NCBI RefSeq assembly: GCF_015752205.1
Contig: NZ_JADOVG010000003.1
Coordinates: forward strand, 1-64,000
Source of the DNA: Polaromonas sp. CG_9.7
GTDB lineage: Bacteria > Pseudomonadota > Gammaproteobacteria > Burkholderiales > Burkholderiaceae_C
Length of the DNA: 64,000 bases
Direction: 5' to 3'
Each line of letters opens with the position of its first letter. The stretch's first letter is position 1. Both the position numbers and the translations under genes were made by a program. Under the pieces are notes generated by a model that had not been told where the DNA came from, searched no databases, and saw only the letters and a list, made by a program, of their open reading frames with translations. This document shows positions 1,059 through 61,751 of the stretch, piece after piece.

Positions 1059-1116
1059 GCTACTCTTTAAATAGCAAGCTTTTCTTTACCCTAAAGCGCA
1101 AAATTCCATTTTTTTC
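1059..1116 (+). repeat. dispersed 58-bp repeat, copy 1
   Basis: Core GCTACTCTTTAAATAGC (1059-1075), then 19 nt, then an AGCGCAAAA box and a T-rich tail. It lies between the convergent membrane-protein gene and maoC-like gene. The core and spacing match ten other copies in this window. Confidence 0.65.
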
Positions 1117-1205
1117 AGTATTTCACAGCATGGCGGCGCAAGCACCGCCGACAAGGGGAAAACCGTCAGGCTCGGCAAACTCCCTGCACAGCCATTTCGC
1201 TTGCA

Positions 1206-1691
1206 TCATTGCGCCTTGCGCGGCACCACCAGCTTGTAGACTGAAAGCTGCAGCACATGGCCGTGCTGGTTTTGCGTTGTGCTGCGCACCACCACCAAGC
1301 CGCGTTCTGGCCGCGAACGCGAAGGCGTGACGCTGACCACTTCGGTCTCGACCTGCAGGATATCGCCGGGCCGTGTGGGCTGGGGCCAGCTGATTTCGCC
1401 GCCAGCGCCGATGATGCCGCCCGCCAGCGGCAGGCCGCCGCCAACCAGCAGGCGCATGGTGACGGCCGCTGTGTGCCAGCCGCTGGCAGCCAGGCCGCCA
1501 AACAGCGTTTCTTTGGCCGCCTCGTGGTCCAGATGGAAAGGCTGGGGGTCGAACTGCAAGGCAAAGGCCTTGATCTGTGTCTCGTCAAGCAAGAAGCCGG
1601 CGCTGGAAAAACGATCCCCAACCTGCAGATCATCAAGGTAGCGAAGTGGAGCGGCAGGGGTTTGGGACAGTTCGGACAGCGTGGAATTCAT
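1206..1691 (-). CDS. MaoC-family (R)-specific enoyl-CoA hydratase-like protein
   Basis: The 161-residue product starts at MNSTL. It carries a single hot-dog MaoC dehydratase domain: DLQVGDRF near the N terminus, then the FDPQPFHLDHEAA segment with the Asp/His pair typical of the hydratase II active site, and GLAASGWHTAA for the helix. It probably hydrates or dehydrates an acyl-CoA; the substrate cannot be read from the sequence. It is the last gene of a minus-strand run after marR and a MATE transporter, 38 bases downstream of the transporter. Longer frames upstream overlap the MATE gene and are not needed. Confidence 0.85.
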   Translation of the reverse strand: MNSTLSELSQTPAAPLRYLDDLQVGDRFSSAGFLLDETQIKAFALQFDPQPFHLDHEAAKETLFGGLAASGWHTAAVTMRLLVGGGLPLAGGIIGAGGEISWPQPTRPGDILQVETEVVSVTPSRSRPERGLVVVRSTTQNQHGHVLQLSVYKLVVPRKAQ

Positions 1692-1729
1692 GATGATGTG
1701 CTTTCTGATGATGCAGTTTTTTAGCTCAA

Positions 1730-3142
1730 TTAGAGTGATTTCACTTGCTCCAGGCGGCGCAGCAGCGTGGCCGGTGCGCAAGGCCAGCCCAGACGGCCAA
1801 ACCAGGCCCCCCCGGCAATCGCCGCTGCAATCACGACGCCATACACCACCAGGGCCGCAGCCTGCGCCATGAAGACACCGACCAGTCCGCCGCCCCAGCG
1901 GATCACCAGCCAGCCACCGACGGCGGCCACAGCCAGCCGCGCGACATTGCCGGCCACGGGCCAAAGCAGCCGGCCGGCACCCTGCGAGGCGAAGTACAGC
2001 ACCAGTCCGACACCGAAAAAACCATAGAACGGCGCCACCGTGCGCAAGTAAAGCGTTCCGGCGTCAAGCATCGCCGGGTCACTGCCGAACAGGGACAGCC
2101 ATGCCCGGGGGAAAAGGGCCGCAGCCAGGCCAATCCCTCCGGTCAGGGTGAACGCCATGGCCGCGCCTGTCCACGTGGCACGCAGCGCGCGCGCATGCTG
2201 GCCGGCCCCCATGCAGGTGCCGACCATGGCCACCAGCGGCGCACCCAGGCCGAACACCAGCGGCACCAAAAGGTATTCCAGCCTGGATGCCGTGCCGTAA
2301 CCGGCAATCGCGGCCGGACCGAAACCACCCGCAAGCGTCGTGGCCACGCCAATCGACAGGTTGGTTGCCACGGTGGAGATCGAGCCGATCAGACCGATGC
2401 GCAGAATGTCGCGAAACAACCGCCAGCGCAGCCCGGACCATGCCAGCGACGGCTTGAGCAGGCTGCGGCGGGAGCACAGGTAAGCCGCCAGCGCCAGGGT
2501 GCCCAGCGCGTAGTACAGCAGCAGCGCGATGGCCCCACCGGCAATGCCCAGCGCCGGCACCGGGCCCCAGCCAAAAATCAGCAGCGGCGACAGCGGGACC
2601 AGTGCCACCACGCCGGCCACGGTCACATTGGCTGGCACCGTCATGTTGCCGGTGCCGCGTATCACCGCCGCCAGCGAATTGAACAGCCACACCAGTACCG
2701 CACCGCCGAACACCCAGTGCGAATAAGTCAGCGCCGCCTCCAGCGAGGCGCCACTGCCGCCCATCAACGCAAACAGCCAGCGCCCGCCGAGCAGCAACGC
2801 CAGCGAAAACGCCAGGCCAAAGCCCAGCGCAATCACCAGCGCATGCAGGACCAGCGCGTTGGCGTCCTCGCGCCGCCCACCCCCAAGGGCGCGCGCAATC
2901 GACGAGGCAATGCCGCCACCCATCGCACCGGCCGAGGTCATCTGCATCAGCATCACGACCGGAAACACCAGCGCCATGCCGGCGAGCGCGTCCAGGCCGA
3001 GCTTGCCGACGAAATAGGTTTCGATCAGGCCGACGCAGGCCTGCGCCACCATCACCACCACATTGGGCAGGGCCAGGCGCAGCAGCGTGCGGCCAATCGG
3101 CGCTTCCAGCAGCAGGCGGGTGCGCGGGTCAATGGCGGTCAT
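1730..3142 (-). CDS. MATE-family multidrug/Na+ efflux transporter
   Basis: The 470-residue, highly hydrophobic protein has the two-fold MATE layout of about 12 membrane helices. Its N-terminal GRTLLRLALPNVVVMVAQ and the YFVGKLGLDALAGMALVFPV segment are typical of MATE helices 1-2. A second half begins near ILRIGLIGSISTVATNL. It should export cationic compounds or drugs against Na+ or H+. It lies 41 bases downstream of a MarR regulator on the same strand, so a drug-inducible marR-MATE operon is likely, with the MaoC gene following. Confidence 0.88.
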   Translation of the reverse strand: MTAIDPRTRLLLEAPIGRTLLRLALPNVVVMVAQACVGLIETYFVGKLGLDALAGMALVFPVVMLMQMTSAGAMGGGIASSIARALGGGRREDANALVLHALVIALGFGLAFSLALLLGGRWLFALMGGSGASLEAALTYSHWVFGGAVLVWLFNSLAAVIRGTGNMTVPANVTVAGVVALVPLSPLLIFGWGPVPALGIAGGAIALLLYYALGTLALAAYLCSRRSLLKPSLAWSGLRWRLFRDILRIGLIGSISTVATNLSIGVATTLAGGFGPAAIAGYGTASRLEYLLVPLVFGLGAPLVAMVGTCMGAGQHARALRATWTGAAMAFTLTGGIGLAAALFPRAWLSLFGSDPAMLDAGTLYLRTVAPFYGFFGVGLVLYFASQGAGRLLWPVAGNVARLAVAAVGGWLVIRWGGGLVGVFMAQAAALVVYGVVIAAAIAGGAWFGRLGWPCAPATLLRRLEQVKSL

Positions 3143-3183
3143 TGATTTCTCCGTGGGCAGGCAGTGCGCCAGGGACTGGAAAT

Positions 3184-3690
3184 TTATTCATCATCGGCGC
3201 CCGTGCCACTGTCGACAGGCACCAGCAACTCAAGGGATTCATTGATCAGGCCGTGAAGCGCCAGCACGCGACTCGCACCCAGACGTTGGTTCAGGCTTTC
3301 CTGGGCAATCTTCCAGTGGCCCAGCGCTTCCTTGCGCTTGGCATGGCCGGCCGGCGTGATGCTGACGGTCCGGCTGCGCGCATCGCTGCCGGTGGCCAGT
3401 TCGACCCAGCCGGCGTCCACCAGCGGCTTGAGGTTGCGTGTCAGGGTGGAGGCGCTCATCCTCATGCGCCTGGCCAGTTCGCCCGGCCGCAGCGGGCCGA
3501 GCTTGAGCACATGACTGAGCAGCGAATACTGCGTGGTCTTGAGTCCGGCGCCCACCATTTCCACGTCGTAATGCTGGGCCACCTGGCGCATCAACTGGCG
3601 CAGCTTGAAGTTGGTGCAGCCCAGAGTTTTTAGTGCGGCCAGGAGTTCGGCGTCAGGCAGGCTTTGAACAGGTTCTGGCTTGTCGTGCAT
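3184..3690 (-). CDS. MarR-family transcriptional regulator
   Basis: The 168-residue winged-helix protein. The N-terminal helices carry the dimer surface (LRQLMRQVAQHYDVEMVGAG). The central part has the MarR DNA-binding pattern: YSLLSHVLKLGPLRPGELARRM, MSASTLTRNLKPL, then the wing VELATGSDARSRTVSITPAG. It is the first gene of a minus-strand run with MATE and MaoC genes and is divergent from a thioesterase gene; the 53-base gap contains nested palindromes. It probably represses both directions until a small aromatic or lipophilic ligand binds. The ligand is unknown. Confidence 0.9.
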   Translation of the reverse strand: MHDKPEPVQSLPDAELLAALKTLGCTNFKLRQLMRQVAQHYDVEMVGAGLKTTQYSLLSHVLKLGPLRPGELARRMRMSASTLTRNLKPLVDAGWVELATGSDARSRTVSITPAGHAKRKEALGHWKIAQESLNQRLGASRVLALHGLINESLELLVPVDSGTGADDE

Positions 3691-3731: not shown

Positions 3732-3743
3732 CAGAGGAATGAC

Positions 3744-4391: not shown

Positions 4392-5195
<804 letters not shown>

Positions 5196-5199
5196 AGAT

Positions 5200-8288: not shown

Positions 8289-8760
8289 GGTTTATGGATT
8301 TCTGGAGAAGTTTGATAATTATGGCATTTGCATAATTTTAAATAAAGTGGGGAGTTTTTTCCTTCGAGTCGCCTTGCGCTAGGCGCTCATCGGCGTTCCA
8401 CAGCTGCTTTTCAAACAAGGTTTTTGGATTAAATCGGGCGTTTACGCAATAGGCATGGGCGTTAGCAGCTATCTTTTTTGTATCGATGAGAAGCGTCAAA
8501 ATGGTTTTTCCAGTGGCTCCTTTGCAGCGTTTGCGGCCCTTCGCATTTCGGATTCGACGGGCCTCAAAGGGCTAATAAGCGACACTCAGGAGCCGTCTTC
8601 AGAGACGTACACTCATTCGGCTCCAGCCAGAGCCAAACCAGGCATTTCGACCGCCATCGCTCCTCAAGTGGTGGCGGTTGGATGGCGCAGCGCAGAATGG
8701 CGTGCGACTGAACCTGAAGGCCGCAATGCAGTGGCGCAATTCCCGTACCTACAAGGATGT
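8289..8760. other. divergent intergenic region
   Basis: The 470 bases lie between the ATPase and the sensor kinase. The left part (8300-8360) is AT-rich and may hold the ATPase promoter. A dispersed repeat occupies 8427-8484. The frame of the kinase is open back to 8455, but those 102 codons encode no recognisable domain and begin inside the repeat, so they are treated as leader. Confidence 0.5.
8427..8484 (-). repeat. dispersed 58-bp repeat, copy 2
   Basis: Read on the minus strand: core GATACAAAAAAGATAGC (8468-8484, one arm imperfect), 19 nt, then TGCGTAAACGCCCGATTT. Its middle part TGCTAACGCCC is shared closely with other copies. Confidence 0.55.
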
Positions 8761-12984
<4,224 letters not shown>

Positions 12985-13615
12985 TGGTTCACCCCGACGG
13001 CACGCTTGTCTAACCTCAACGTGTTGAAGACTGCCCAAGAGGGGCACACCCGCCTGCGCACTGTTTTGCTCCCGCATGACAGATGAAAAGCGAGGTTTGA
13101 GTTGCATGAAAGGGCCGAGCAAAACTCGATAGACAAAGCGATTCATTGGGCACTTGCACGGGCAATGCGCTTGATCGATGAACGTCTTCTTCCCCATCCT
13201 TGCAGGAACTGCGGACATGGTGCTTCAGTCAATCCTGCTCCATCTGGCGAGCGGCAACTTCGAGGAAGCCAACAGAGCCGCTGGCCTGGCCGCTTTGTCG
13301 TCGTGTGCTGTCCGGGACGCTCCGCGGCTAACTGACCGCAAATAGTCTAAAGATCGAACTGCGCCACTTTCCCGTAAAACGGCGCCACATCCTGTGATCG
13401 CTACTGGTTGAAATTAACTAATTGTTTTAACCATATCAGGCATCAAATCGGCCTCTGGCGCAATACAGGCATTCGCAAACAGCTATATTTTCAATAGCAA
13501 AAATTTCCACCCACGTCTTCTCTGCCGAAAAAGCCGGCGGCCCATCTTGCCCGGCCCGCTGCGATGTGTACGATGACGTCGAGCGCTTCAACATCGCAAC
13601 CAAAGGGAACAATCC
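12985..13615. other. 630-base intergenic region without a supported gene
   Basis: No convincing gene is seen. A 55-codon frame at 13178-13345 (MNVFFPILAGT...) has ordinary composition but no ribosome binding site. A dispersed repeat lies at 13441-13498. The section nearest the phosphofructokinase gene should contain its promoter. Confidence 0.5.
13441..13498 (-). repeat. dispersed 58-bp repeat, copy 3
   Basis: Minus-strand core GCTATTGAAAATATAGC (13482-13498), 19 nt, then TGCGCCAGAGGCCGATTTG. Intergenic, upstream of the phosphofructokinase gene. Confidence 0.65.
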
Positions 13616-15308: not shown

Positions 15309-15341
15309 TTTGTGGGGGCTGAGGCGACGGCAAATGCCATT

Positions 15342-15399
15342 GCTATGGTTTAAATAGCTGTCAGCGCACGTCCCATGTGCGAAAACCGCCTTTTACATG
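15342..15399 (+). repeat. dispersed 58-bp repeat, copy 4
   Basis: Core GCTATGGTTTAAATAGC (15342-15358), 19 nt with GCGCACGTCC, then TGCGAAAACCGCCTTTT. Lies between convergent gloA and the YeiH-like gene. Confidence 0.7.
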
Positions 15400-15456
15400 C
15401 TTGATTCGTAACTACTCAGGTCACTTTTCAGTTTAAAGCGCAATGAAATCAGCCTC

Positions 15457-15578
15457 TGTCATCCCGGCCCCGGATCAAGCCCGGGGTTTCAGCACCCGGG
15501 AACCATGACTTCTCCCCAAACGGGGTCATGGATTGCCCCGGATCAAGTCCGGGGCAGGCTCATCAAGTAAGCAATGAC
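15457..15578. repeat. compound REP-like palindromic element
   Basis: It opens with GTCATCCCGG and ends near GCAATGAC. Inside are two near-identical hairpins, CCCCGGATCAAGCCCGGGG and CCCCGGATCAAGTCCGGGG, around a third one made of CCATGAC/GTCATGG with CCCC/GGGG. The layout resembles a bacterial interspersed mosaic element. Confidence 0.65.
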
Positions 15579-15650
15579 AAAAGAGATTACGGAGAGCTTC
15601 GAGGGAGCTGAGTAATTACCTTGATTCAGTCCTTTAGCGAATTCAACCAG

Positions 15651-20886: not shown

Positions 20887-20926
20887 CGGGCGCTTTCAGC
20901 TACTTTTTTGATAGCTCAAAGCGCCC
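20887..20926. repeat. extended hairpin around repeat copy 5
   Basis: CGGGCGCTTT (20887-20896) pairs with AAAGCGCCCG (20917-20926), with the repeat arms AGCTA/TAGCT inside. The stem of about 15 bp could end transcription of the operon, although no long T run follows. Confidence 0.5.
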
Positions 20927-20956
20927 GTCCTTTATGCGCAAATGGATGATTTCATT
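20899..20956 (+). repeat. dispersed 58-bp repeat, copy 5
   Basis: Core GCTACTTTTTTGATAGC (20899-20915), 19 nt with GCGCCCGTCC, then TGCGCAAATGGATGATTTC. Between the convergent cytochrome and eda genes. Confidence 0.7.
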
Positions 20957-21101
20957 AAAAATCGTACCGATTCACACGCTCATGCTCTGCAACTTGGCTT
21001 CAGCACCTTCATCGCAAGGCCGCAGGTCATGGCGATGCCGGGCCGATGAGGCGCCAAAAGATGGATTTCCGCGTTGCGCTCACCACCATGCATGCGCTGC
21101 T

Positions 21102-28619: not shown

Positions 28620-29339
28620 TTAAAACAGGTCAAGTATGCGCCATCCGCGGTCAAGGGCCAGCGCCCGCAGGCGAGCATCCGGGTTGGTGGCGACCGGATG
28701 GTTGACCTTTTCCAGCAGCGCCAGGTCATTCATTGAATCGGTATAAAACGTCGTGTGCACGTCGCCCCAGCCCAATTGGCGGGCAGCCAGCCATTGTTCC
28801 ATGCGGGTCACTTTTCCTTCGCGGGCCGATGGCGTGCCCTGGATCTCGCCGGTCAGGTTGCCTTGGGCGTCACGTTCCAGTTGAACGGCGATCAGTTCGG
28901 ACACGCCAAAAGCATCGGCAATTGGCCGCGTCACGAACTCGTTGGTGGCCGTCACGATAAGCACTTCGTCGCCGGCAGCGCGGTGCCGTTCGACCAGTTC
29001 CAGCGCCTGCGGCTTGATAGCTTTATGCACGATATCGCTCATAAAACGGGCGTGAGCAGCTATTGAATTAATAGTACCCTGTTCGCGAATAGCCTGCGTG
29101 GCAAAACGCACATAGTCCTGGATATTGAGCGTTCCAGCCCGGTATTGCTCGAAAAACTCGGCATTGCGGCGCTTGAATTCGGTCGCGTCGCACCAGCCCA
29201 GCGCAATCGTGAACTCGCCCCATTCGTAGTCAGAGTCCATCGGGATCAAGGTATGGTCCAGATCAAACAATGCCAATTTCCGGAGAGTTTGCGCGTTGTT
29301 CACGGCTTCTTTCCTGTCAACACTCACATCAACCGTCAT
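28620..29339 (-). CDS. HAD-IB phosphatase (SerB-like)
   Basis: The 239-residue protein has HAD motif I LALFDLDHTLIPMDSD, motif II VLIVTATNEF, motif III Lys in GKVTRMEQW, and motif IV YTDSMNDLALLEKV. It belongs to the HAD-IB group with an alpha-helical cap. Phosphoserine-like or other small phosphates are possible substrates. Its start overlaps the hda stop (ATGA), and pcnB-folK follow. Residues about 89-107 use AT-rich codons and match the dispersed repeat, though protein length looks normal there. Confidence 0.88.
   Translation of the reverse strand: MTVDVSVDRKEAVNNAQTLRKLALFDLDHTLIPMDSDYEWGEFTIALGWCDATEFKRRNAEFFEQYRAGTLNIQDYVRFATQAIREQGTINSIAAHARFMSDIVHKAIKPQALELVERHRAAGDEVLIVTATNEFVTRPIADAFGVSELIAVQLERDAQGNLTGEIQGTPSAREGKVTRMEQWLAARQLGWGDVHTTFYTDSMNDLALLEKVNHPVATNPDARLRALALDRGWRILDLF
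29018..29075 (-). repeat. dispersed 58-bp repeat, copy 6, inside the HAD phosphatase gene
   Basis: Minus-strand core ACTATTAATTCAATAGC (29059-29075), 19 nt (TGCTCACGCCCGTTTTATG), then AGCGATATCG. It is in frame and on the coding strand. The middle section TGCTnACGCCC is the same as in copy 2 at 8427-8484. Confidence 0.5.
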
Positions 29340-35644: not shown

Positions 35645-35648
35645 CAGT

Positions 35649-35706
35649 GCTCCTTTAAAGATAGCTACCAGCGCCCTTGCCACCTGCGGAAATGGCCTTT
35701 TTTGTC
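35649..35706 (+). repeat. dispersed 58-bp repeat, copy 7
   Basis: Core GCTCCTTTAAAGATAGC (35649-35665, one mismatch), 19 nt with GCGCCCTTGCC, then TGCGGAAATGGCCTTTTTT. Between convergent MFS and SirB1-like genes; it could also end transcripts on the plus strand. Confidence 0.65.
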
Positions 35707-35712
35707 TAAATA

Positions 35713-36564
35713 TCAGTTGCCAGCGCGGCGCAACTGGCTCACACGCGCAGCAATCGCGTCGGTATCCAGCGCATCGTCGGCATGCGCCAGGTAGGTTTCC
35801 AGGTCGGCCACCGCTGAACCCACGTCGCCCTGCGCCGCCCAGGCCAGGCCCCGGTCGCGGTATTCGGTCCAGGCGTCGGGCTGCAGCACGATGAGCCGGT
35901 CCTGCACGGCAATCAGGCGGGGCCAGTCTTCCTGGGTTTTGTGGATGTCCTGCAGGTTGCGCAGCATGCGGGCAATGATCTCGCGCGGCGGCGCTGACTG
36001 CAGGTACAGCCCCATCGGCACTTCAAACTCTTCGCTGACAGGGCTGCGCTGGCGAAAAGGCTCCAGCCGCTCGGCCAGCTCCTCGCGGCTCAGCGACTGG
36101 CCATTGAACGGGTCGATCACCACCTGGCCCTTGGGCAGGTTGACCTTGACCATGAAATGCCCCGGAAAAGCCACGCCACGCGCGTTCAGCCCCAGGCCAA
36201 CGGCCAGTTCCAGCCACAGCACGGCCAGCGTGATCGGGATGCCGCGCCGGGTGCGCAGCACGGTGTTCAGGTAGCTGTTGTCGGGGTCGTAGTAGTCGTT
36301 GATGTTGCCGCCAAAGCCCAGGTCGCGGAAAAAGAACTGGTTCAGCGCGCGCAGGCGCTGCAGTTCGGGGGCATCAAGGGGCAGCCGGCGCTTGAGGCGG
36401 GCCAGCAACTGGTCCACATCGCCCAGCACCTGCTCGACGTCCAGGTCGGGGTATTCATCCTGCGCCAGGCTGACGGCGGTTTCCAGCAAGGGAAAATGCG
36501 CATCGCTTTGCACCAGGCTGGAAAAGTATTGAAGCGGCGACGGAACGGCGAAATTTAATGGCAT
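35713..36564 (-). CDS. SirB1-family (transglutaminase-like fold, TPR) protein
   Basis: The 283-residue product has the SirB1 N domain: LPLDAPELQRLRALNQFFFRDLGFGGNINDYYDPDNSYLN in short pieces, then RRGIPITLAVLWLELAVGLGL and VAFPGHFMVKV. The C terminus has tetratricopeptide-like helices (EDWPRLIAVQDRLIVL, WTEYRDRGLAWAAQGDV). The catalytic Cys of true transglutaminases is absent. Function is unproven. Position beside murJ is conserved in relatives, as far as I know. Confidence 0.85.
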   Translation of the reverse strand: MPLNFAVPSPLQYFSSLVQSDAHFPLLETAVSLAQDEYPDLDVEQVLGDVDQLLARLKRRLPLDAPELQRLRALNQFFFRDLGFGGNINDYYDPDNSYLNTVLRTRRGIPITLAVLWLELAVGLGLNARGVAFPGHFMVKVNLPKGQVVIDPFNGQSLSREELAERLEPFRQRSPVSEEFEVPMGLYLQSAPPREIIARMLRNLQDIHKTQEDWPRLIAVQDRLIVLQPDAWTEYRDRGLAWAAQGDVGSAVADLETYLAHADDALDTDAIAARVSQLRRAGN

Positions 36565-36657: not shown

Positions 36658-38223
36658 TCAGCGTTTAAGCAATTTTCGCAGGTTCAGGCCCGACACCCGG
36701 AGGACTATGAAATATATAGCGCCTGATGCAGTCAGGACAAGCGCAAGCAGCCCGATTCGCTGAAAGTATTGGTGCTTCAGGCCGATCCAGTTCACACCCT
36801 CGGCAGCCCAGAGCAAAAACACCGCCAGCAGTGCGCTGGCTGAAAAAACCTGCAGGCCAAACAGCACCCAGCCCGGCGCCGGCGTGAAGCTGCCGCGCTT
36901 GATCAGCCCGACCAGCAGGCTCAGCGCATTGATCAGCGCGCCGATACCAATGGCCAGCGCCAGCCCGGCATGCTGAAAATACGGCACCAGCGCCAAATTC
37001 AGCAGTTGCGTAATGACCAGCACGACCACGGCAATCTTCACTGGCGTCTTGATGTTCTGGCTGGCATAAAAACCCGGGGCCAGCACCTTGATGGCCACCA
37101 GCCCGACCAGGCCGGCGCCGTAGCCCATCAGCGCAGTGGTGGTCTGCTGCACGTCACGGTCGGTGAACGCGCCGTAGTGATACAGCGTTGCCACCAGCGG
37201 TTCCGAGAACGTCAGCAGCGCCACCGCGCAGGGCACAGCCAGCAGCACGACGATGCGCAGCCCCCAGTCGAGCATGGCCGAGTATTTGACGTCGTCACCC
37301 TCACCCCTGGCCGCCGCCAGTTGCGGCGTCAGCACCACGCCGATGGCCACGCCCAGCATGGCGGTCGGGAACTCCATCAGCCGGTCGGCGTAGGTCAGCC
37401 AGCTGACACTGCCGGGCGTCAGGTGCGAGGCGATCTGGGTGTTGATCAGCAACGAGATTTGCGCAACGCTGACGCCCAGCAGGGCCGGCAACATCAGCTT
37501 GGCAATGTTCTTGCTGCCGGGCTCGGCCCAAGCCGTTCGCAGCGCCGACAGGCTGAAGCCGATTTTCGGCAGCAGCCCCAGCCTGAGCAACGCCGGCACC
37601 TGCACGCCAAGCTGTAGCACGCCGCCCAGCATCACGCCGACGCCCAGCGCATACACCGGCTCGATGCCCAGCGACTTGAACCACGGCGCGCCCAGCCAGG
37701 CCGCGCCAATCATGGACACGTTGAGCAGCACCGGCGTGGCAGCTGGAACGGCAAAACGCCGCCAGGTGTTAAGCACACCGGACGACAGCGCCACCAGCGA
37801 CATGAAGGCGATGTACGGAAACATCCAGCGCGTCATGACCACGGCGGCGTCGTAGCCGCGCGGCGCCTGCTGCAAGCCGCTGGCCATGGCCCAGACCAGC
37901 AGTGGCGCAGCCGCCACGCCCAGCACGCAGGTCAGCAGCAGCACCCAGAACAGCAGCGTGGCAACGCGGTCGATCAGCAGCTTGGTGGCGGCTTCGCCAT
38001 GCTGCGCCTTGTTCGCCGCCAGCACTGGCACGAAAGCCTGGCTGAATGCGCCTTCGGCAAACAGGCGGCGAAACAGGTTGGGAATGCGAAAGGCCACATT
38101 GAAGGCATCGGTCATGGCGCTGGCGCCAAAGCTGGAGGCAATCAGCAGTTCACGCACCAGGCCGGTGACGCGGGACAGCAAAGTGAACAGGGAGACGGTG
38201 GAGGCGGATTTGAAAAGTGACAC
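36658..38223 (-). CDS. murJ: lipid II flippase MurJ (MviN)
   Basis: The 521-residue protein begins at a GTG with the typical MSLFKSASTVSLFTLLSRVTGLVREL. About 14 membrane helices are seen. Diagnostic stretches: FGASAMTDAFNVAFRIPNLFRRLFAEGAFSQAF in pieces, SSGVLNTWRRFAVPA, and PTAMLGVAIGVVLTPQL. It flips lipid II to the periplasm for wall synthesis. In many betaproteobacteria rpsT is its direct neighbour; here 5.5 kb of accessory DNA lies between. Confidence 0.95.
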   Translation of the reverse strand: MSLFKSASTVSLFTLLSRVTGLVRELLIASSFGASAMTDAFNVAFRIPNLFRRLFAEGAFSQAFVPVLAANKAQHGEAATKLLIDRVATLLFWVLLLTCVLGVAAAPLLVWAMASGLQQAPRGYDAAVVMTRWMFPYIAFMSLVALSSGVLNTWRRFAVPAATPVLLNVSMIGAAWLGAPWFKSLGIEPVYALGVGVMLGGVLQLGVQVPALLRLGLLPKIGFSLSALRTAWAEPGSKNIAKLMLPALLGVSVAQISLLINTQIASHLTPGSVSWLTYADRLMEFPTAMLGVAIGVVLTPQLAAARGEGDDVKYSAMLDWGLRIVVLLAVPCAVALLTFSEPLVATLYHYGAFTDRDVQQTTTALMGYGAGLVGLVAIKVLAPGFYASQNIKTPVKIAVVVLVITQLLNLALVPYFQHAGLALAIGIGALINALSLLVGLIKRGSFTPAPGWVLFGLQVFSASALLAVFLLWAAEGVNWIGLKHQYFQRIGLLALVLTASGAIYFIVLRVSGLNLRKLLKR

Positions 38224-44191: not shown

Positions 44192-44211
44192 ATGGGTGAA
44201 CTTCTTTGATC

Positions 44212-44269
44212 GCTATAAAATTAGTAGCTGCTTAACCAAGAAACGCTTGCGCAAATAGGCTTTTTGACA
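44212..44269 (+). repeat. dispersed 58-bp repeat, copy 8
   Basis: Core GCTATAAAATTAGTAGC (44212-44228), 19 nt, then TGCGCAAATAGGCTTTTT. Directly behind the rpsT terminator, between convergent genes. Confidence 0.7.
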
Positions 44270-44335
44270 TCAAACCAGACAAGTTGAACCAACTGACGAC
44301 TGACGGTTTAAGGCAAATGACGCTGCAATCGAAAC

Positions 44336-51497: not shown

Positions 51498-52181
51498 ATG
51501 ACGCAACCCGCTTCCCCTCTTGCTTCCCCTTTTTCCGCCGCTGCTGCTCCCGCCAGGCGCCTGAAACTCTGGGACATCTCGCCTGCGGTGGACGCGCATT
51601 CCGACGTCTTTCCCGGCGACACCGCTTATTCGCAGCAACTGCATTTTTCGCTCGCGCCCGAGTGCCCGGTCAACGTCAACCGCATCACGCTGTCGCCGCA
51701 CACCGGCGCACATGCCGATGCGCCACTGCACTACGCCAGCGGCGAAGCGGCGATTGGCGCGGTCGATCTGCAGCCTTACCTTGGGCCGTGCCGCGTCATC
51801 CATTGCCTGGACAGCGGACAGCTGATCGAGCCCGCGCACCTGGCCCACGCACTTGAAAACCTGCCCGCCCGAGTGCTGCTGCGCACATCCCGCGCCGCCA
51901 GCCAGTCCTGGGCATCGTTTAGTGCGATTGCGCCCGCCACGCTTGCGCTGCTAGCTAGTAAAAACATAGCGCTTATCGGTATTGACACGCCCAGCGTGGA
52001 CCCGGCCGCCAGCCAGGACCTGCCCTGCCACCACCTGCTGCTGGCGCACGGCCTGCGGGTGCTGGAAAACCTGGTGCTCGACGACGTGCCCGAAGGCGAC
52101 TACGAACTCATCGCCCTGCCCCTCAAGCTGATGCAGGCCGACGCCTCGCCGGTTCGCGCCATCCTGCGCGAACTGCCCTGA
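51498..52181 (+). CDS. kynB: kynurenine formamidase
   Basis: The 227-residue cyclase-family protein has the metal site HTGAHADAPLHY (HxGxHxDxPxH), preceded by WDISPAVDAHSDVFPGDTAY in parts, and IGIDTPSVDPAASQDLPCHHLLL near the C terminus. It hydrolyses N-formylkynurenine to kynurenine. The N terminus is some 20 residues longer than usual and Ala/Pro-rich, so a later start is possible. It heads kynB-kynU-kynA. Codons 153-158 coincide with the core of the dispersed repeat. Confidence 0.94.
   Translation: MTQPASPLASPFSAAAAPARRLKLWDISPAVDAHSDVFPGDTAYSQQLHFSLAPECPVNVNRITLSPHTGAHADAPLHYASGEAAIGAVDLQPYLGPCRVIHCLDSGQLIEPAHLAHALENLPARVLLRTSRAASQSWASFSAIAPATLALLASKNIALIGIDTPSVDPAASQDLPCHHLLLAHGLRVLENLVLDDVPEGDYELIALPLKLMQADASPVRAILRELP
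51954..51970 (+). repeat. repeat core only (GCTA-N9-TAGC) inside kynB
   Basis: GCTAGTAAAAACATAGC, coding Ala-Ser-Lys-Asn-Ile. The 19-nt spaced TGCGC box of full copies is missing, so it may be a partial copy or a chance match. Confidence 0.35.
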
Positions 52182-54541: not shown

Positions 54542-54588
54542 GACAGGGAGGGCAAAGGCGTTTCAACCGTGAATCTTTGCAAAATTTT

Positions 54589-54646
54589 AACCAAATAGGC
54601 CTTTTGCGCACGTCCCGTATGCTTAATTAGCTATTTATTTAATAGC
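54589..54646 (-). repeat. dispersed 58-bp repeat, copy 9
   Basis: Minus-strand core GCTATTAAATAAATAGC (54630-54646), 19 nt, then TGCGCAAAAGGCCTATTTGG. Its core holds the TAA that ends the restriction-modification pseudogene. Confidence 0.7.
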
Positions 54647-55158
54647 GCCCTGCGTCTTGGCGCGCTGCAGGTTCAGCGCCAGCAGGCGCTTGAGGATGTC
54701 TTCGTCCGGCAAGTCGGCGCGGTAGTCCAGCCAGCCATAGGCGGCGGCCACGGCGGCGTCGAGCGCCTGGTGGGCGGCGTCCAGCCACGCCGGGCGCTGG
54801 TTGTAGAGCTTGGTCAGTGTGCGCTCGGCCAGCAGCACCGTGTGCATTTCGCTCGGGTGGCCGGTGAACTGGGTGTGAATGCGGATCGTCAGGCGGTCGC
54901 AGACCACCAGAATCGGCGGGTTGCTTAGGGCGAGGCTGTAGCTGAGCTGTTGCTTGAGCGCGCGTCGAGGTTCTTGCCCGGCGCCTTGTTTTCCGAGGCG
55001 AAGGCGCCGCGCCGGAACACGTCGGCATAACCCGTGCGCCCGCCGATGACGCTGTTCTTTTCCTCGAACAGATAGCCCGCTTCGCTGCCGGGCTTGGGTA
55101 CGGCCAGCAGCTCGCACAGGTCCAGGAAATGGCTTTGCGCGCCCTGCTCTTCATTCAT
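54635..55158 (-). pseudogene. remnant of a class I SAM DNA methyltransferase / type II restriction fusion (YeeA/PglX-like)
   Basis: The 5' part (from MNEEQGAQSHFLDLCELL) matches the nuclease-side N terminus of these large enzymes, with the PD-(D/E)xK-like pattern D...FASENK in YADVFRRGAFASENKAPG. A one-base loss near 54960 shifts the frame from NLDAR... to ALKQQLSYSLALSNPPILVV. The 3' part (AERTLTKLYNQRPAWLDAAH, DEDILKRLLALNLQRA) is the C-terminal end of the same family. The methylase centre of several hundred residues is deleted. Stop codon comes from a dispersed repeat. Confidence 0.75.
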
Positions 55159-55340: not shown

Positions 55341-58202
55341 TCAGCGCTTGAGCAAGGCCTTCAGCGCGTTTTGCAGGCGTCGGGCATTGCTGGCGTCGAA
55401 CTCGGCGGCCAGCACCTTGGCGGTGTCCTCGCCCCAGGTCTCGGTTGGCGCCGGCGCATTGCGGCGGGTCAGCAGTTGCAGCTGCAACATGCGGCGCGCG
55501 CTGATGTGCTCGGCCGGTGTTGGCAGCTCGGCGGCCATTTCCAGGCGCAGCAGCGATTCAGCGGCCTCTTTTCCGGCTGGCTCGCCCAGCGCCTTCACCC
55601 AGCTGGTGCGCACCGCTGGCGCAACCTGCTTGCCCAGTTCCTGCGCGGCAGGCAGTTGCTCGGGGTCGCGCTTTTCCCACGCGGTCAAGAGGTTGGTCAG
55701 CACTTCGCCGTGCGCCTGCATGGCGAGCTTTTTCAGCGCATGGTTAGCGGCCTCGAAAGCCTCGCGCTGGGCGCGGAAGGCGGCATCGCCCAGGCGCGGG
55801 CCGCGCTCTTCAAATGCCGGACGCTCGCTGCGTTCGCTGAAACGCTCGGTGCGCTCGGGACGGTAAGGCTCGAACTTGTTGTCGGTGCTCTGGCGCGGGC
55901 CGCTGGGCTTGCCGCTCGGTCGCGCGTCTTTGCGGTCGCCAAACTTGCCGCCACGGCCTGCGGACGCGGGCTCGGCACGGCGGGCGCCGGGGCGGTCGTC
56001 GCCGCGCATGGCGACGATCTTCTTGGGCGCCGGCTTGGGCGGGGCGACCGGCTCTGCGGGCGCGATGGCGGGTTCCGAGGACTCGGAAAAACCCTCTTCA
56101 ATGGCTTCGGCGGTCGGGTTGCCGTCGGCATCGACAGTCGCCTCGGTTGCTACGCTTTCGATAGCTTCCTGTATAGGCGCGTCCTGCGCGGAAGGCTGAT
56201 CTGATTCGGAAACCGGGGCCGCAGGCGCGGCATCGGCGGCGGTTTTGGCTTGGGCTGCGGCGGCGACCTGTCCGCGCACGGCGGCTTCCAGTGCCTTGGC
56301 GGCGGCATGGATTTTTTGCGCGTCGCCGCTGGCGGTGGCCTGCTCGACGGCCTTGGCGGCTTCGAGCACGTAGCGGTCGTGCTCGCCCAGCGCGGCGGCA
56401 GATTTTTCGCGCTCGACAGTCTTGCGCTGGAAGGCGTCGTCAATCGGCTTGCGGAAAGCGTCCCAGAGCTTTTGCTCCTGCTTGCGCTCGATCGGCACGC
56501 TTTGCGCCTCATGCTGCCAGCGCTGCTGCAGCGACTTCACGGCGTCGATTCGCAGCTGCGGCTCGGCGCCCAATGCTTGTGCTTCCTCAATCATCGCGCG
56601 GCGGCGCGCCAGGCTCGCGCCTCGGGCGGCGGTCAGGCCGGCGTCGGCCTGGTCCATGGCGGCTTTCCAGAGCGGCTGGATTTCGGCGAACGCCTTGTCG
56701 CCCAAGTGGCCGGCTTCGCGCCATTTTTCGACAAAGCCGTTCAGGCTGCGAATGTGCATCTTCCAGTCGCTGTTGTCCTTGTGGGCTTCGGCCCAGGCCA
56801 GCACTTCGTCGATCAGCGCCTGACGCTGAGCCTTCTGGGCTTCGGCCTGTTCCTTGACCTTTTCCAGCCAGGCTTCGACGACCTTGTGCGCTTCGTTGCA
56901 GGCATCGTCAAAACGCTTCCACAGCGCGTGGTTGGGCGTGCCGCCCTGGTCGCTGGTCTTCCATTGCTCGCGCATGTGGCGCAGCGCGTCCTGTTGCTTG
57001 CGACCGCCGAGTGGCTTGACGAGCAATGCCTCGGCCTTTACGACCAGTTCCTCGCGGATCTGGTCGGCACGCCAGCGCTGCCAGCCTTCGAGTTCGCCAG
57101 CAGCGGTCAGCGCGGCATGCGCGGCGGCTTCCAGCTTGCTGTCGATGTTGCGGATGTTGTCCTTCAGCGCCTGGCGCAGCTCGGCGGCCACCTTGGGCGT
57201 GGACTTGCCGTGGCCTTCGGTGACTTCGTGTTCCAGCCTGGCGAGGGCCTGCTGCACGAAGGCGGAGGACTTGGCGCGCAGGTCGTTCAGCGCGGCCGGG
57301 TCCATCCGGGTCTTGGGCGCGCGGGCAGGCTGGCCGGCGTCGGCAGCGCCCTGCTGCTCGGATTTCAAAGTTGGCAGGCCGCGCGCGGCGCGCAGCTCGT
57401 CGGCCCAGACCGGCACGGTAGGCAGCGGCGCAGCGCTGTCTTCAGCAGCCTTCATGGCCACGGCCAGGGCGCTTTGAAACGCATCCCAGACCGCCAGCAA
57501 CTGGCCGCGCGAGGCGTCGAGCAGCGGCGGGAACTTGGCATCGACGCTGGCCCAATTGGCGTCCTGCGCCACTTCGTCAGCCTGTGCCTGCCAGTGCGCC
57601 ACGTCGGTGCGCAGCGTTTCAAGCACGGACTCGGCGTCGCGCCACGGCTTGATCGACAGCACTTCAATGCGCTGGGCGATCAACACGGCGGCTTCGCGTT
57701 GCACCTGGGTGCGGTGCTGCAGGTCTTCAATCGTCTTGACGCGCTCGGCGAGCTGCACCTTCAGTCCGGCCAGCGGCTCTTTGGACAGAGGCGCACCGGC
57801 TTTGGCGGCGTCGCGCTGCCAGGCCAGGGCATTGGCCAGGTTGAGCTTGGGCAACGCCAGCAGCGCCTGGGCTTTTTCAGCCCATTCGGCGGCGACAGCT
57901 TCCTGGCCTTTGCTGCGCCGGGCTTCGTCAAGCTTTTCCTTCAAAGGCTTGGCCGCGCCCTTGTCGCGGTTGGCCAGGTCTTTGTACACCTCGGCCATCT
58001 GCTCGACGCTGGGATCGGTGGTCAGCCACTGACGGATGCGGGAAGCCCGCTCGCCCGAGGTGGAGGCTGAAAAAGCGCCGCCGGTCAGGCCATCCAGCGG
58101 ATGGGCTTCTGCGGTTTTGGCGGTTTTGGCAGTGCCGGTTTTCACGGCGGCGGCCGGCGTGGCGTCGGCTTTGGAAGATTTGGACAAGGGAAAGCGCAGC
58201 AT
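55341..58202 (-). CDS. large DUF349-domain coiled-coil protein
   Basis: Start at MLRFPLSKSSKAD gives 953 residues. Several DUF349 units of about 75 residues are seen (KSLQQRWQHEAQSVPIERKQ, LWDAFRKPIDDAF, HMREQWKTSDQGG, ALWKRFDDACNEAHKVVEAW), separated by helical Ala/Glu-rich stretches. A linker of residues about 640-800 is Ala/Pro/Glu-rich, then Arg/Gly-rich (PGARRAEPASAGRGGKFG). No enzyme motif is present. The family is annotated as of unknown function. It carries a full dispersed repeat at 56149-56206 in its linker. Confidence 0.85.
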   Translation of the reverse strand: MLRFPLSKSSKADATPAAAVKTGTAKTAKTAEAHPLDGLTGGAFSASTSGERASRIRQWLTTDPSVEQMAEVYKDLANRDKGAAKPLKEKLDEARRSKGQEAVAAEWAEKAQALLALPKLNLANALAWQRDAAKAGAPLSKEPLAGLKVQLAERVKTIEDLQHRTQVQREAAVLIAQRIEVLSIKPWRDAESVLETLRTDVAHWQAQADEVAQDANWASVDAKFPPLLDASRGQLLAVWDAFQSALAVAMKAAEDSAAPLPTVPVWADELRAARGLPTLKSEQQGAADAGQPARAPKTRMDPAALNDLRAKSSAFVQQALARLEHEVTEGHGKSTPKVAAELRQALKDNIRNIDSKLEAAAHAALTAAGELEGWQRWRADQIREELVVKAEALLVKPLGGRKQQDALRHMREQWKTSDQGGTPNHALWKRFDDACNEAHKVVEAWLEKVKEQAEAQKAQRQALIDEVLAWAEAHKDNSDWKMHIRSLNGFVEKWREAGHLGDKAFAEIQPLWKAAMDQADAGLTAARGASLARRRAMIEEAQALGAEPQLRIDAVKSLQQRWQHEAQSVPIERKQEQKLWDAFRKPIDDAFQRKTVEREKSAAALGEHDRYVLEAAKAVEQATASGDAQKIHAAAKALEAAVRGQVAAAAQAKTAADAAPAAPVSESDQPSAQDAPIQEAIESVATEATVDADGNPTAEAIEEGFSESSEPAIAPAEPVAPPKPAPKKIVAMRGDDRPGARRAEPASAGRGGKFGDRKDARPSGKPSGPRQSTDNKFEPYRPERTERFSERSERPAFEERGPRLGDAAFRAQREAFEAANHALKKLAMQAHGEVLTNLLTAWEKRDPEQLPAAQELGKQVAPAVRTSWVKALGEPAGKEAAESLLRLEMAAELPTPAEHISARRMLQLQLLTRRNAPAPTETWGEDTAKVLAAEFDASNARRLQNALKALLKR
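56149..56206 (+). repeat. dispersed 58-bp repeat, copy 10, inside the DUF349 gene
   Basis: Core GCTACGCTTTCGATAGC (56149-56165), exactly 19 nt, then TGCGCGGAAGGCTGATC. It runs antisense to the gene and falls in the low-complexity linker (about residues 666-685) without breaking the frame. Confidence 0.5.
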
Positions 58203-58683
58203 AGTTAACAATCGTTTCGGAAAAAAAGCCGCCAGCAACAGCACCTGCGCCACGCATTCAAAGCCCCCGACGGGCGTGCCTGCCGGCAGCGTCAAGACTC
58301 AAGGGGCGAAGAGCAGGAAGTTCTGTCAGCGAAGAAAAATTTGGTTTGTGGCTTGCAAGGCCTGGCTACCTACAACTTTAGACATTAAAGCAATCCACGT
58401 ATTTTCGCTGTTTTTATGGCATTGCCAAATTAAGTTCGGTGTACGGTGTCCATTTTGCGTCTGGCGGCTTGGTCCGGGCAGTTCTCAAAACAGCCGGAAG
58501 GCGGCAAATCACTAAAAACCAAGTGTTTCTTGACCATCTTGCACTTTGCGAAGAAGCAGACAAGCTCCCGCAGTACAGGTCACACGTTGATGTCAGCGAA
58601 GTGAATGAAGCACCGAACTGGCCCAAGAACAAAAAATGTTCAGACAGTTTGGCCGCGCAGAATTGCATGCCGAAAGAAATCAA

Positions 58684-58980: not shown

Positions 58981-59286
58981 AAGACGTTACATGAAGCAAG
59001 CATTGCAAAGAAACGCTCGAATTCGGAAAATAACGAGATTTTCGACAAAAAAGGTCTTTTTTAAACATTTTTTCATATATTGAAGTAAATCTTTATGATT
59101 GACAGGTTATTTAACGCGTAATTAGAATGCGACCAAGTCCTGCAAAGCAAGGGCTTACCCGAACGCGCTGCCTTTCCAGGCAGCATCCTCGAGGGTCAAC
59201 AACCTGCAGACAGCTGCATGGTTTGATGGCGACCCGATCAAAGCCTGCTCCGCCTCAAAAGGTTTGCATGCAAAGAAAGGAGTGCT

Positions 59287-60171
59287 ATGACAGCGCTAGC
59301 GAATAACCGTTTTGATTTCAACGTCAAGACTTGTCTGAGTAATTTGAAAAGCAGCTTTGGAACAGTTGCCGACGACATTGCCCGCGGATTTTTTGTGATT
59401 ACGCACAGCAGCTTTGCCCTTTTGGGCCTGGCCGTTGTCTTTGCCGTTGTCACGCTGATGGCCCGACCCGATCTGCGCGACACAAGCGAAGTCAAGCTGA
59501 TGGCCTGGCTGCAGGAGCGGCGCGGCACTGCGGTGGAATCCGAAAGCATCGTGCCCGCACAACAGGCTACGGCCGAACCTTCACCTGCCGACAAGCCAAA
59601 GGTTCTTTCCAGCCAACAGGCGGCAGTCGCTTTATGGATCAGCAAGAAGTATTCGGTGGCGCAGGAACCCGTCGGAACATTGGTGGCTGAAGCTTTCGAT
59701 ATTGGCCACAAGGTCAAGCTTGATCCGACCTTGATCCTGGCGATCATGGCGATTGAATCGGGCTTTAACCCATTTGCACAAAGCCCGGTCGGCGCCCAGG
59801 GCCTGATGCAGGTAATGACGCAGATTCACCATGACAAATATGCCAAGATCGGCGGCCGGCTCGCCGCCTTTGATCCGGTGGCCAACCTGCGTGTTGGTGT
59901 CAAGGTGCTGCAGGAGTGCATCACGCGCGCTGGTTCCATCGAAGGAGGACTGAAATACTATGTTGGCGCTGCCAACCTTGAAAGCGATGGCGGCTATGCC
60001 AACAAGGTCATGGCCGAACGTGCCCGACTGCTGGCTGTGGTGGGCGGCCAGCGCCCACCAACGACTGCACCGCGTTTTGTGGCAACACCAGCCCCTGCGC
60101 AAACCACGTCTGTGTCCTTTCCTGCTGAGCGCAAACCCGCACAGGACATGGTGCAATTGGACGAATCGTAA
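59287..60171 (+). CDS. membrane-anchored lytic transglycosylase (SLT domain)
   Basis: The 294-residue protein has one N-terminal membrane helix (FALLGLAVVFAVVTLMA, about residues 43-60), a Pro/Ala-rich spacer and a family 23 SLT domain. The catalytic Glu is in ILAIMAIESGFNPFAQS, followed by GAQGLMQVM and NLRVGVKVLQECI; KYYVGAANL replaces the usual YNAG motif. A Pro/Thr-rich tail follows. It cleaves peptidoglycan glycan chains to anhydro-muropeptides. It is preceded by AAAGGAG and appears to be monocistronic. Confidence 0.9.
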   Translation: MTALANNRFDFNVKTCLSNLKSSFGTVADDIARGFFVITHSSFALLGLAVVFAVVTLMARPDLRDTSEVKLMAWLQERRGTAVESESIVPAQQATAEPSPADKPKVLSSQQAAVALWISKKYSVAQEPVGTLVAEAFDIGHKVKLDPTLILAIMAIESGFNPFAQSPVGAQGLMQVMTQIHHDKYAKIGGRLAAFDPVANLRVGVKVLQECITRAGSIEGGLKYYVGAANLESDGGYANKVMAERARLLAVVGGQRPPTTAPRFVATPAPAQTTSVSFPAERKPAQDMVQLDES

Positions 60172-60212
60172 AGCCCTTAACGTGTCGGCCGGACACGCTA
60201 CGCTACACTAGC

Positions 60213-60338
60213 GCGGTGCGCGACTGGCGATAGGCATCCAGGTTTTACAACCATTGATGCGGACGTGGGACACCACGGGGAAGCGCACCGTTTGCGGCCA
60301 TTGGGCCAAAAAGCGTTTAGCCGTTCGCCTGGGCAGCC
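60213..60338 (+). promoter_or_regulatory. ZTP (pfl-motif) riboswitch upstream of glyA
   Basis: The conserved parts of the pfl RNA are present in order: stem strand GGTGCGC (60215-60221), CGACTGGCGA, a variable arm, GGACGTGGGACACCACGGGG, closing strand GCGCACC (60283-60289), a variable linker, and CCGTTCGCCTGGGCAGC (60321-60337), whose CGCC can form the pseudoknot with GGCG. ZTP riboswitches are known to turn on one-carbon and purine genes such as glyA, purH and folD when ZMP/ZTP rises. A CTTTG/CAAAG hairpin downstream may be the expression platform. Confidence 0.85.
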
Positions 60339-60400
60339 CTTGCTTCCTTTGCTTTGCATCAAAGCCAAAGGACAAGGAACCAAAGTCTTGAAGGACTGCC

Positions 60401-61645
60401 ATGTACCACCGCAATATTCTCATCGAACAGACCGATCCTGAAATTTTTGCTGCCATCGAGGCTGAAAACGCCCGCCAAGAGCATCACATCGAACTGATCG
60501 CCAGTGAAAATTACGCCTCGCCTGCCGTCATGGCCGCGCAAGGCTCGCAACTGACCAATAAATACGCCGAAGGCTACCCCGGCCGCCGCTACTACGGCGG
60601 CTGCGAACACGTCGATGTGGCCGAGCAACTCGCCATTGACCGCGTCAAGCAGATTTTTGGTGCCGATGCCGCCAACGTGCAACCGCATTGCGGCGCTTCT
60701 GCCAACGAAGCCGTCTTCCTTGCCTTCCTCAAGCCCGGCGACACCATCATGGGCATGAGCCTGGCCGAAGGCGGTCACCTGACGCATGGCATGTCATTGA
60801 ACATGAGCGGCAAGTGGTTCAACGTCGTGTCCTACGGCCTGAACGACAAGGAAGAAATCGACTATGACGCGATGGAGCGTAAGGCCCACGAAAGCAAGCC
60901 CAAGCTCATCATTGCAGGCGCATCTGCCTACAGCCTGCGCATTGACTTCGAGCGCTTCGCCAAAGTCGCCAAGGACGTCGGCGCGATTTTCCTGGTGGAC
61001 ATGGCGCATTACGCCGGCTTGATTGCCGCTGGCATCTATCCGAACCCCGTGCCGTATGCAGACGTCGTGACCTCGACCACCCACAAGAGCCTGCGCGGCC
61101 CACGCGGCGGCATCATCCTGATGAAGGCCCAGCACGAAAAAGCAATTAACAGCGCCATCTTCCCTGGCCTGCAGGGCGGCCCGCTGATGCACGTGATTGC
61201 AGCCAAAGCCATCGCTTTCAAGGAAGCGCTGACGCCCGAGTTCAAGACCTACCAGCAGCAAGTCCTGAAGAACGCCCAGATCGTTGCCGAAACGTTGACC
61301 GAGCGCGGCCTGCGCATCGTTAGTGGCCGGACCGAAAGCCACGTCATGCTGGTGGATTTGCGCGCCAAGGGCATCACCGGCAAGGAAGCCGAAGCCGTGC
61401 TGGGCAGCGCCCACATGACCATCAACAAGAACGCCATTCCAAACGACCCGGAAAAGCCGATGGTCACCAGCGGAGTGCGCATCGGCACCCCGGCCATGAC
61501 CACACGCGGCTTCAAGGATGAGGAAGCGCGCATGACGGCCAATCTGATCGCTGACGTGCTGGACAATCCGCGCGATGCGGCCAATATTGAAGCGGTTCGC
61601 GCCAAGGTCCATGCATTGACAAGCCGGTTTCCGGTTTACGGCTGA
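60401..61645 (+). CDS. glyA: serine hydroxymethyltransferase
   Basis: The 414-residue PLP enzyme has [58 protein letters not shown] and the Schiff-base Lys in [16 protein letters not shown]. It interconverts serine and glycine while loading one-carbon units on tetrahydrofolate. The start follows AAGGA. The leader carries a ZTP riboswitch, so expression should rise when folate one-carbon supply limits purine synthesis. nrdR follows 127 bases later, with two repeats in the gap. Confidence 0.97.
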
Positions 61646-61663
61646 TCGATTTATCGAGTCTGT

Positions 61664-61684
61664 CATCCCGGCCCTGTGCCGGGA
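61664..61684. repeat. REP-like hairpin
   Basis: ATCCCGGC-CCTGT-GCCGGGAT, preceded by GTC. Same family as 15457; here it could also end glyA transcripts. Confidence 0.6.
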
Positions 61685-61693
61685 TCCACGACT

Positions 61694-61751
61694 GCTACGT
61701 TTTCAGTAGCTATAGCCCTCCGCTGGCATTAGGCCAAAGGGCAGTTTAATC
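61694..61751 (+). repeat. dispersed 58-bp repeat, copy 11
   Basis: Core GCTACGTTTTCAGTAGC (61694-61710), 19 nt, then TAGGCCAAAGGGCAGTTT (box diverged). Between glyA and nrdR, abutting the REP-like hairpin. Confidence 0.6.

Follow-up and report, generated by a model that had tools for sequence, protein, structure and literature searches.

A dispersed 70-bp, three-dyad DNA site with local dialects in Polaromonas and other Comamonadaceae: a candidate self-DNA label

The 64,000-nucleotide stretch of DNA examined here (the window), from the beginning of contig NZ_JADOVG010000003.1 of Polaromonas sp. CG_9.7, contains 13 copies of a 70-bp site that is dispersed through the genome of its host and through those of other Comamonadaceae. 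We propose, at a probability of about one half, that this is a recognition site with three dyads that is read by a putative trans-acting DNA-binding factor and that serves as a label of self DNA, most likely for preferred uptake or recombination. The existence of such a reader is suggested by the conservation of the site at the level of the DNA, by the origin in place of the copies that lie within genes, by the local dialects in which the site is written and by its nearly all-or-none presence among related genomes. A common protein-binding unit had rightly been among the options offered by the first-pass annotation of the window.

Size, number and architecture of the repeat

The information in the site spans positions -4 to +65 relative to the start of its core and totals 53 bits; the unit is ungapped and rigid, and its consensus in the source genome (G000) is approximately atttGCTATtaAATtaATAGCTgcttgcGCacGtnngacaTGCGCaAaaGgCctaTTTnattnatAAatn. 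The first-pass annotation had described a 58-bp repeat at twelve places in the window, composed of a GCTA-N9-TAGC core, a fixed 19-nt gap, a 'TGCGCAAA' box and a 'AGGCCTTTT' tail. A profile scan found the repeat at all twelve places and confirmed the 19-nt gap (the core occupies 0 to +16 and the box starts at +36), and the repeat is thus real, but the length given for it was too short, and the box and tail are consensus tendencies from which many copies deviate. The window has ten exact cores rather than the nine that had been counted, the tenth of which (at 59284) is without the rest of the unit and is not a copy.

When an iterated ungapped profile seeded with exact cores was applied to 464 kb (the window plus positions 1-400000 of contig C1), it scored 76 copies above 18 bits (these same copies had also served to train it), whereas five dinucleotide shuffles gave no match above 18 or above 15 bits and one in all above 12. 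A chance origin of the repeat is therefore discounted, and by extrapolation there are ~680 copies per genome, in agreement with the several hundred that had been forecast from the window. Genome-wide (4.15 Mb, 55 contigs) there are 396 exact GCTA-N9-TAGC cores, as compared to 126 for the reversed pattern, and the exact pattern ATAGC-N19-TGCGC is over-represented on both strands of G000 (157 forward and 143 reverse, against 3 and 1 for the control). The site appears to be unnamed in the literature, since neither a search by topic nor one by the literal strings of two dialects retrieved a published name for it, the sole relevant report on repeats being that on BRE (PMC3110155).

A pooled profile exhibits three centres of symmetry (dyads), at +8, +31 and +56.5. 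GC boxes alternate with A/T tracts along the 70 bp, and the tracts (6-9, 50-53 and 60-63) are runs either of A or of T, which suggests that the shape of the DNA is what is read. Lone parts of the site are rare outside of full copies, with two left, two middle and one right part scoring above 18 in 400 kb.

Conservation, dialects and copies within genes

Copies in G000 were compared with the corresponding DNA of Polaromonas sp. CG9_12 (G045), P. glacialis R3-9 (G036) and one further Polaromonas (G023). Orthologous flanks were available for 68 comparisons involving 36 distinct copies, and a copy lay between them in 58 of these, at the expected spacing in 46; the 10 comparisons in which the copy was missing all had loosely aligned flanks. 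Where the flanks aligned tightly, the copy was present in 38 of 38 comparisons and at the expected spacing in 37. Among 33 gap-free pairs, which represent 17 copies, the orthologs differed at 43 of 726 high-information columns, 156 of 825 middle columns and 153 of 759 low-information columns. The rate for the flanks over all 33 pairs (312/1782) is inflated by four pairs with flanks out of register, and when these are set aside the differences number 36/638 for high, 138/725 for middle and 118/667 for low columns and 199/1566 for the flanks. At the third codon positions of copies within open reading frames (ORFs) the corresponding counts are 9/137, 75/223, 45/161 and 113/390. The informative columns thus change about three times less than other columns, at third codon positions as elsewhere, and the constraint therefore follows the DNA motif. 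The mean drop in profile score between orthologs was 1.7 bits for coding pairs (n = 22), versus 21.5 expected, and 4.1 bits for non-coding pairs (n = 11), versus 25.2 expected.

The site exists in species dialects, which we counted as exact matches to ATAGC-N19-box in G000 and 60 relatives of the genus. The TGCGC box occurs 300, 383, 308 and 340 times in G000, G023, G036 and G045, respectively, and the TGGGC box 14, 12, 7 and 12 times, whereas fifteen Polaromonas genomes have 87 to 385 of the TGGGC form and 1 to 30 of TGCGC. In the genus, no reversed-pattern control exceeds 8 matches per strand (TGCGC) or 6 (TGGGC). All 19 genomes that have at least 80 of either form have no more than 30 of the other, i.e., one main dialect; AGCGC is a minority partner form of TGCGC (89 in G000). 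In another Polaromonas, G180, the consensus of 104 copies reads ...GCCCAgG...TGGGCTgGAG... (from a matrix blind to the central dyad), and in an iterated set of 105 copies position +38 is G in 102 and its mirror position, +24, is C in 65. A genome of another genus, G113, uses the form GCGCTTG...CAAGCGC. For nine of the G180 copies, orthologous flanks were found in the DNA of the other species compared, and six of the nine are shared; all six have G at +38, while their partners have C there in 12 of 13 cases (the exception being the weak window copy at 61690), so that the same sites bear different dialects. Shared sites, in other words, carry the local dialect, and dialects rarely mix in one genome.

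Presence of the site is close to all-or-none in Polaromonas: a sequence-only model, R1, gave from 61 to 79 or more hits in 37 of 61 genomes, while one further genome had 13 and the remaining 23 had 0-6. This pattern can be followed at a single locus, since one of the ORF copies lies in trpF, the gene for phosphoribosylanthranilate isomerase. We compared 24 trpF genes, from 20 Polaromonas genomes picked blind to the state of the trpF place (10 site-rich and 10 site-poor, the latter having 0 to 13 model hits, with 13 in G003) together with G000, G023, G036 and G180. No gap interrupts the alignment of the 24 at the site, and FVN and QFHGDE are always 18 residues apart, and yet the place scores +19.5 to +46.5 bits in the 14 site-rich genomes and -29 to -74 in the 10 site-poor ones. 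Six of the latter already have GCCTGCGC at the place of the left box, which is a natural starting point for the site. The residues encoded by the site are likewise uninserted in comparison with solved homologues of PdxJ, TrpF, a HAD protein, a citrate-lyase-like protein and formamidase, while a sixth ORF copy so compared, in a PALP enzyme, was uninformative; several other ORF copies are in linkers or tails (MetG, NuoF, RNase E). Where a copy within a gene has an ortholog that is free of the site, the two differ through substituted bases and not through an insertion.

In a tree of trpF drawn from ~200 bp outside the site, the site-poor genomes fall on several branches, with G031 among the TGGGC genomes, although we take this as a hint only. 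The trpF gene of G031 (L300), itself site-poor, has fragments that resemble the site, CACGGCTTT and CAATTTCA, and these are perhaps a relic after loss of the site.

Copies in the window and in other genomes

The 13 copies in the window, which have a mean GC content of 44%, are as follows.

1055..1124 (+): convergent intergenic; present in G045 and G036
8419..8488 (-): intergenic; no ortholog found in the relatives' DNA compared
13433..13502 (-): intergenic; same place occupied in G036
15338..15407 (+): convergent intergenic; no ortholog found in the relatives' DNA compared
20895..20964 (+): convergent intergenic; GCGC(CCG) boxes flank the core on both sides (a head-to-head half unit)
29010..29079 (-): inside the ORF of a HAD-family hydrolase (28620-29339, -); no residues inserted relative to a solved homologue; scored in G036
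35645..35714 (+): occupies the whole interval separating two convergent genes; also in G045 and G036
36700..36769 (+): 3' end of murJ (36658-38223, -); missing from the first-pass list; present in G045 and G036
44208..44277 (+): convergent intergenic; missing from the region's orthologs in G045 and G036
51905..51974 (-): inside an ORF of the cyclase/kynurenine-formamidase type (51588-52181, +); no residues inserted relative to a solved homologue; present in G045 and G036
54581..54650 (-): convergent intergenic; top-scoring copy of the 464 kb scanned
56145..56214 (+): inside a DUF349 ORF (55341-58295, -); present in G045
61690..61759 (+): weak, intergenic; G045 counterpart retains the left part only

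A copy in G045 adjoins the left flank that is orthologous to that of the site at 20895..20964. The HAD copy is unscored in G045, where a stretch of equal length takes its place, as a loss driven by substitution would leave, and the G045 and G036 regions orthologous to 44208..44277 differ beyond the site itself.

Other features of the window include a separate repeat at 15454-15589 and 61663-61690, built from palindromes rich in GC, of the form CATCCCGGC...GCCGGGATC. Scattered short matches to the first of these stretches, with identities of up to 92-100%, occur in the relatives, and the second abuts the 70-bp site at 61690. A tandem repeat of 12 bp, of the GTCGGT type, lies at 4834-4953, and a ZMP/ZTP riboswitch (RF01750, 56 bits) at 60210-60341 is the one Rfam family in the window to exceed its gathering score.

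The suspicion that similar sequences occur in other Comamonadaceae was well founded, in that a survey of 120 genomes of the family (115 genera) gave model hits in 53, with from 37 to 40 or more hits in 37 genomes, 9-22 in four and 1-5 in twelve. The exact pattern was found at no fewer than 118 loci of a species-level collection. Profile support was obtained for 116 of the matches listed, the two without it being labelled Cupriavidus and Sedimentisphaerales, and the genera named among the others include Polaromonas, Rhodoferax, Acidovorax, Ottowia, Simplicispira, Giesbergeria, Comamonas, Xylophilus and Alicycliphilus. Metagenome-assembled genomes labelled Rubrivivax (L107) and Alphaproteobacteria (L102) also score. 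The site is rare in viral contigs (four matches, three of them supported by the profile), and a similarity search, insensitive because the copies are so diverged, found it in 2 of 72,556 plasmid records.

Interpretation of the site and its relation to known systems

As we envisage it, the reader would bind the site at several hundred places per chromosome, and the site would single out self DNA for a DNA-handling step that cells can do without, most likely preferred uptake or recombination in natural transformation. Sites might accumulate, and keep step with their reader, through the biased spread of matching DNA, in the manner of the DNA uptake sequences (DUS) of the Neisseriaceae. By that analogy, molecular drive through biased uptake would account most simply for the coordinated change of dialects.

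Several observations weigh against this proposal. Neither exact box form reaches 80 matches in 18 of the 37 site-rich Polaromonas genomes, and some of these are without a clear majority (24 TGCGC to 20 TGGGC in G028, 9 to 6 in G010 and 25 to 37 in G042), even if most of the 18 lean to one form (e.g., 39 to 6 in G001 and 6 to 55 in G006). In nine non-coding pairs the informative columns change just slightly less than the flanks (15/198, compared with 51/486), though well below the rate of the low-information columns (34/207). A site of 70 bp and 53 bits far exceeds a DUS of 10-12 bp or the 31-bp uptake signal sequence (USS), its three-dyad symmetry suggests dimeric intracellular proteins rather than a pilin, and the stepwise build-up of a 50-bit site is hard to account for because half-made sites are rare (five between 12 and 18 bits). 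A gene for the reader did not come to light. The ComEC family, tested in the 61 Polaromonas genomes, is encoded by 53 of them (33 of the 37 site-rich and 19 of the 23 site-poor genomes, and G003), and its presence does not separate the two groups; nor was a published uptake assay of the site found. Finally, one pair of P. glacialis copies that are 80% alike over exactly the 70 bp, with flanks that are unlike, hints at some copying, for which this pair and the excess of information leave room.

The main rival, somewhat unlikely as we judge it, is a chromosome-binding protein, which stays a live candidate in view of the length of the site, its dyads and the failure to tie it to a competence gene. 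The site would then be used at the ends of genes by a chromosome-organizing or supercoil protein (a nucleoid protein, a gyrase-type wrapping or a role like that of bacterial interspersed mosaic elements, BIME), with each copy being kept by ordinary selection and the dialects reflecting slow co-evolution of reader and sites. Three dyads with A/T tracts would suit a wrapped nucleoprotein complex. In the first set of 76 copies, with genes assigned by a simple purpose-made gene caller, 52 were intergenic, 19 within ORFs and five overlapped an end. In keeping with the rival, in six regions (1.66 Mb, four genomes), where 76 of 276 copies were within ORFs, convergent gaps were the most occupied (54/126, as against 98/559 tandem and 33/160 divergent gaps), and the median distance from a copy to a neighbouring 3' end was 41 bp, compared with 122 bp to a 5' end. 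A density of about one copy per 5-8 kb in the regions of G000, G045, G036, G023 and G180 fits as well.

That density is, however, not constant among genomes (3-5 copies per 100 kb in G042 and G103, and 30 in G113), and evenness of spacing holds only against the looser nulls. The coefficient of variation of the spacing was below that of random placement (P 0.027, 0.079 and <0.0005) and, in five of the six regions, below that of gap-weighted placement, but against a null of one copy per gap it was significant (P <0.05) in only one of six (P 0.02 to 0.6), and we do not rely on it. On the complete chromosome of G180, where 101 copies were found in 40 sampled 20-kb stretches, neither an origin-terminus trend nor replication polarity was seen, and the split of 44:57 relative to the G-rich strand is not a strong bias; the three sampled stretches without copies were both of those with a GC content below 0.57 and one of normal GC. 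The 61 Polaromonas genomes include 23 that have none or almost none of the sites, so that the function is dispensable, and hundreds of sites would have to switch dialect singly under selection.

Less probable still is a mobile element, as suggested by the first-pass annotation, either a miniature inverted-repeat transposable element (MITE) or a repetitive extragenic palindromic (REP) sequence. On this reading the element, moved in the REP case by a tyrosine transposase, would have spread once, and its copies would now be relics or domesticated. In its favour, 53 bits are far more than the ~13 bits that by our own arithmetic would suffice to specify 700 places on strands totalling 8.3 Mb, which suggests copying; the similarity of the P. 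glacialis pair is limited to the unit; and the units are whole, with few truncated pieces. Such an origin is refuted for the ORF copies examined, which are not insertions, and the informative columns do not undergo neutral decay; intergenic copies could still be insertions. A search with joined flanks for empty sites, over the copies in 1.66 Mb, returned two hits that spanned a junction, one where G036 itself holds a copy and the other a self match, and neither is an empty site. No target duplications were found by this search or in aligned syntenic regions, the copy-free versions of which differ over more than 70 bp and so have no readable boundary or duplication. A partner gene for a REP-associated tyrosine transposase (RAYT) or another transposase had also been envisaged. 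The one family tested, Y1_Tnp, occurs in all but one of the 61 Polaromonas genomes, whether rich or poor in the repeat, and at the four Y1_Tnp loci examined in site-rich genomes (~1.5-2 kb on each side) no pair of inverted copies flanks the gene, there being one weak copy beside it at L036, none at L215 and one each at L216 and L217. This Y1 transposase-like gene (L036 1501-1830; G000:C6:97396-97725) is mostly a single copy per Polaromonas genome and behaves as if domesticated.

Other similar pairs of copies were considered as well. A pair in G045 that is 86% alike was dropped as a case of copying, since its upstream flanks are 92% identical and mark a duplicated segment, and an 83% pair in G036 has weak upstream similarity. 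Two P. glacialis copies on contigs C2 and C4 (L224 and L225) are identical, including their 12-base flanks, and are probably part of a duplicated segment.

We regard a structured RNA (a terminator, a hairpin of a 3' untranslated region or a small RNA), which had also been proposed, as highly improbable: the dyads are able to pair, copies are concentrated near 3' ends of genes and the central dyad of G113 has a perfect GCGCTTG...CAAGCGC stem as its consensus, but no Rfam family is found at the copies, they favour neither orientation clearly with respect to genes (55 anti to 46 sense in tandem gaps, 41 to 35 in ORFs), and dyad partners do not covary over 64 copies in G000, the top mutual information and Watson-Crick excess being at unrelated column pairs. 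Since the pairs do not covary within G000, a hairpin of RNA or single-stranded DNA was rejected, and the site is taken to act as DNA. Covariation of +24 and +38 does appear in the pooled set of 505 distinct copies, because one lineage changed both positions; we rejected it as RNA compensation, as it represents a lineage dialect rather than pair-by-pair change, and in G180 the broken pair GG is present in 30 of 105 copies.

Among known systems, the proposed self-DNA label most resembles in its genomics the DUS of the Neisseriaceae, 10-mers with hundreds to thousands of copies, whose species-conserved dialects differ at a few bases, with one main dialect in most genomes and with some genomes of the family having no repeat (PMC3630211); their receptor is the minor pilin ComP (PMC3868556). 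The 70-bp site is similarly numerous, dialect-bearing and absent from some genomes of its family, but it differs in its length and its three dyads, and a role in uptake is suggested for it by analogy. The USS of Haemophilus influenzae, treated as 31 bp with 1,941-2,248 sites in one strain, has a GC-rich core (GCGG) and A/T tracts with a narrow minor groove, and its high scorers stand clear of the background (PMC7811141). The 70-bp site shares the pairing of GC boxes with A/T tracts and the clear separation of high-scoring sites, but is longer and has dyads, which are unmentioned for the USS in the portions of PMC7811141 used. REP and BIME sequences are extragenic, have more than 100 copies and a suggested role in chromosome organization, and their RAYT genes lie between two inverted REPs and are associated with how abundant the REPs are (PMC2817692); the 70-bp site, by contrast, has no flanked Y1_Tnp gene at the loci examined and no such correlation, and its examined ORF copies are not insertions. 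BRE, finally, is dispersed in Comamonadaceae including Polaromonas, usually in intergenic DNA and in some cases wholly within coding sequences; it is 75-91 bp long, partly tandem, on average 69% GC in Bordetella and present in 29 copies in Polaromonas sp. JS666 (PMC3110155). The 70-bp site is likewise dispersed in this family, mostly intergenic and partly within ORFs, but its length, its mean of 44% GC in the window and its hundreds of copies set it apart from BRE, a distinction made by description and not by sequence.

Tentatively, the site might represent a third, independent, family-wide system of uptake sequences, that of the Comamonadaceae, in which an unusually long label with several dyads is used and dialects act as barriers to recombination between environmental species. 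The site occurs in hundreds of copies per chromosome in many genera of a family that is common in freshwater and soil. Written in place, even within trpF, and shifting its dialect as a set, it offers a natural experiment in the joint evolution of a genome-wide code and the reader of that code. If the uptake role is true, the site sets the partners of gene exchange in these communities, and if the role is instead one of organizing the chromosome, the site is a new element of its architecture; under either reading, the reader can be sought directly.

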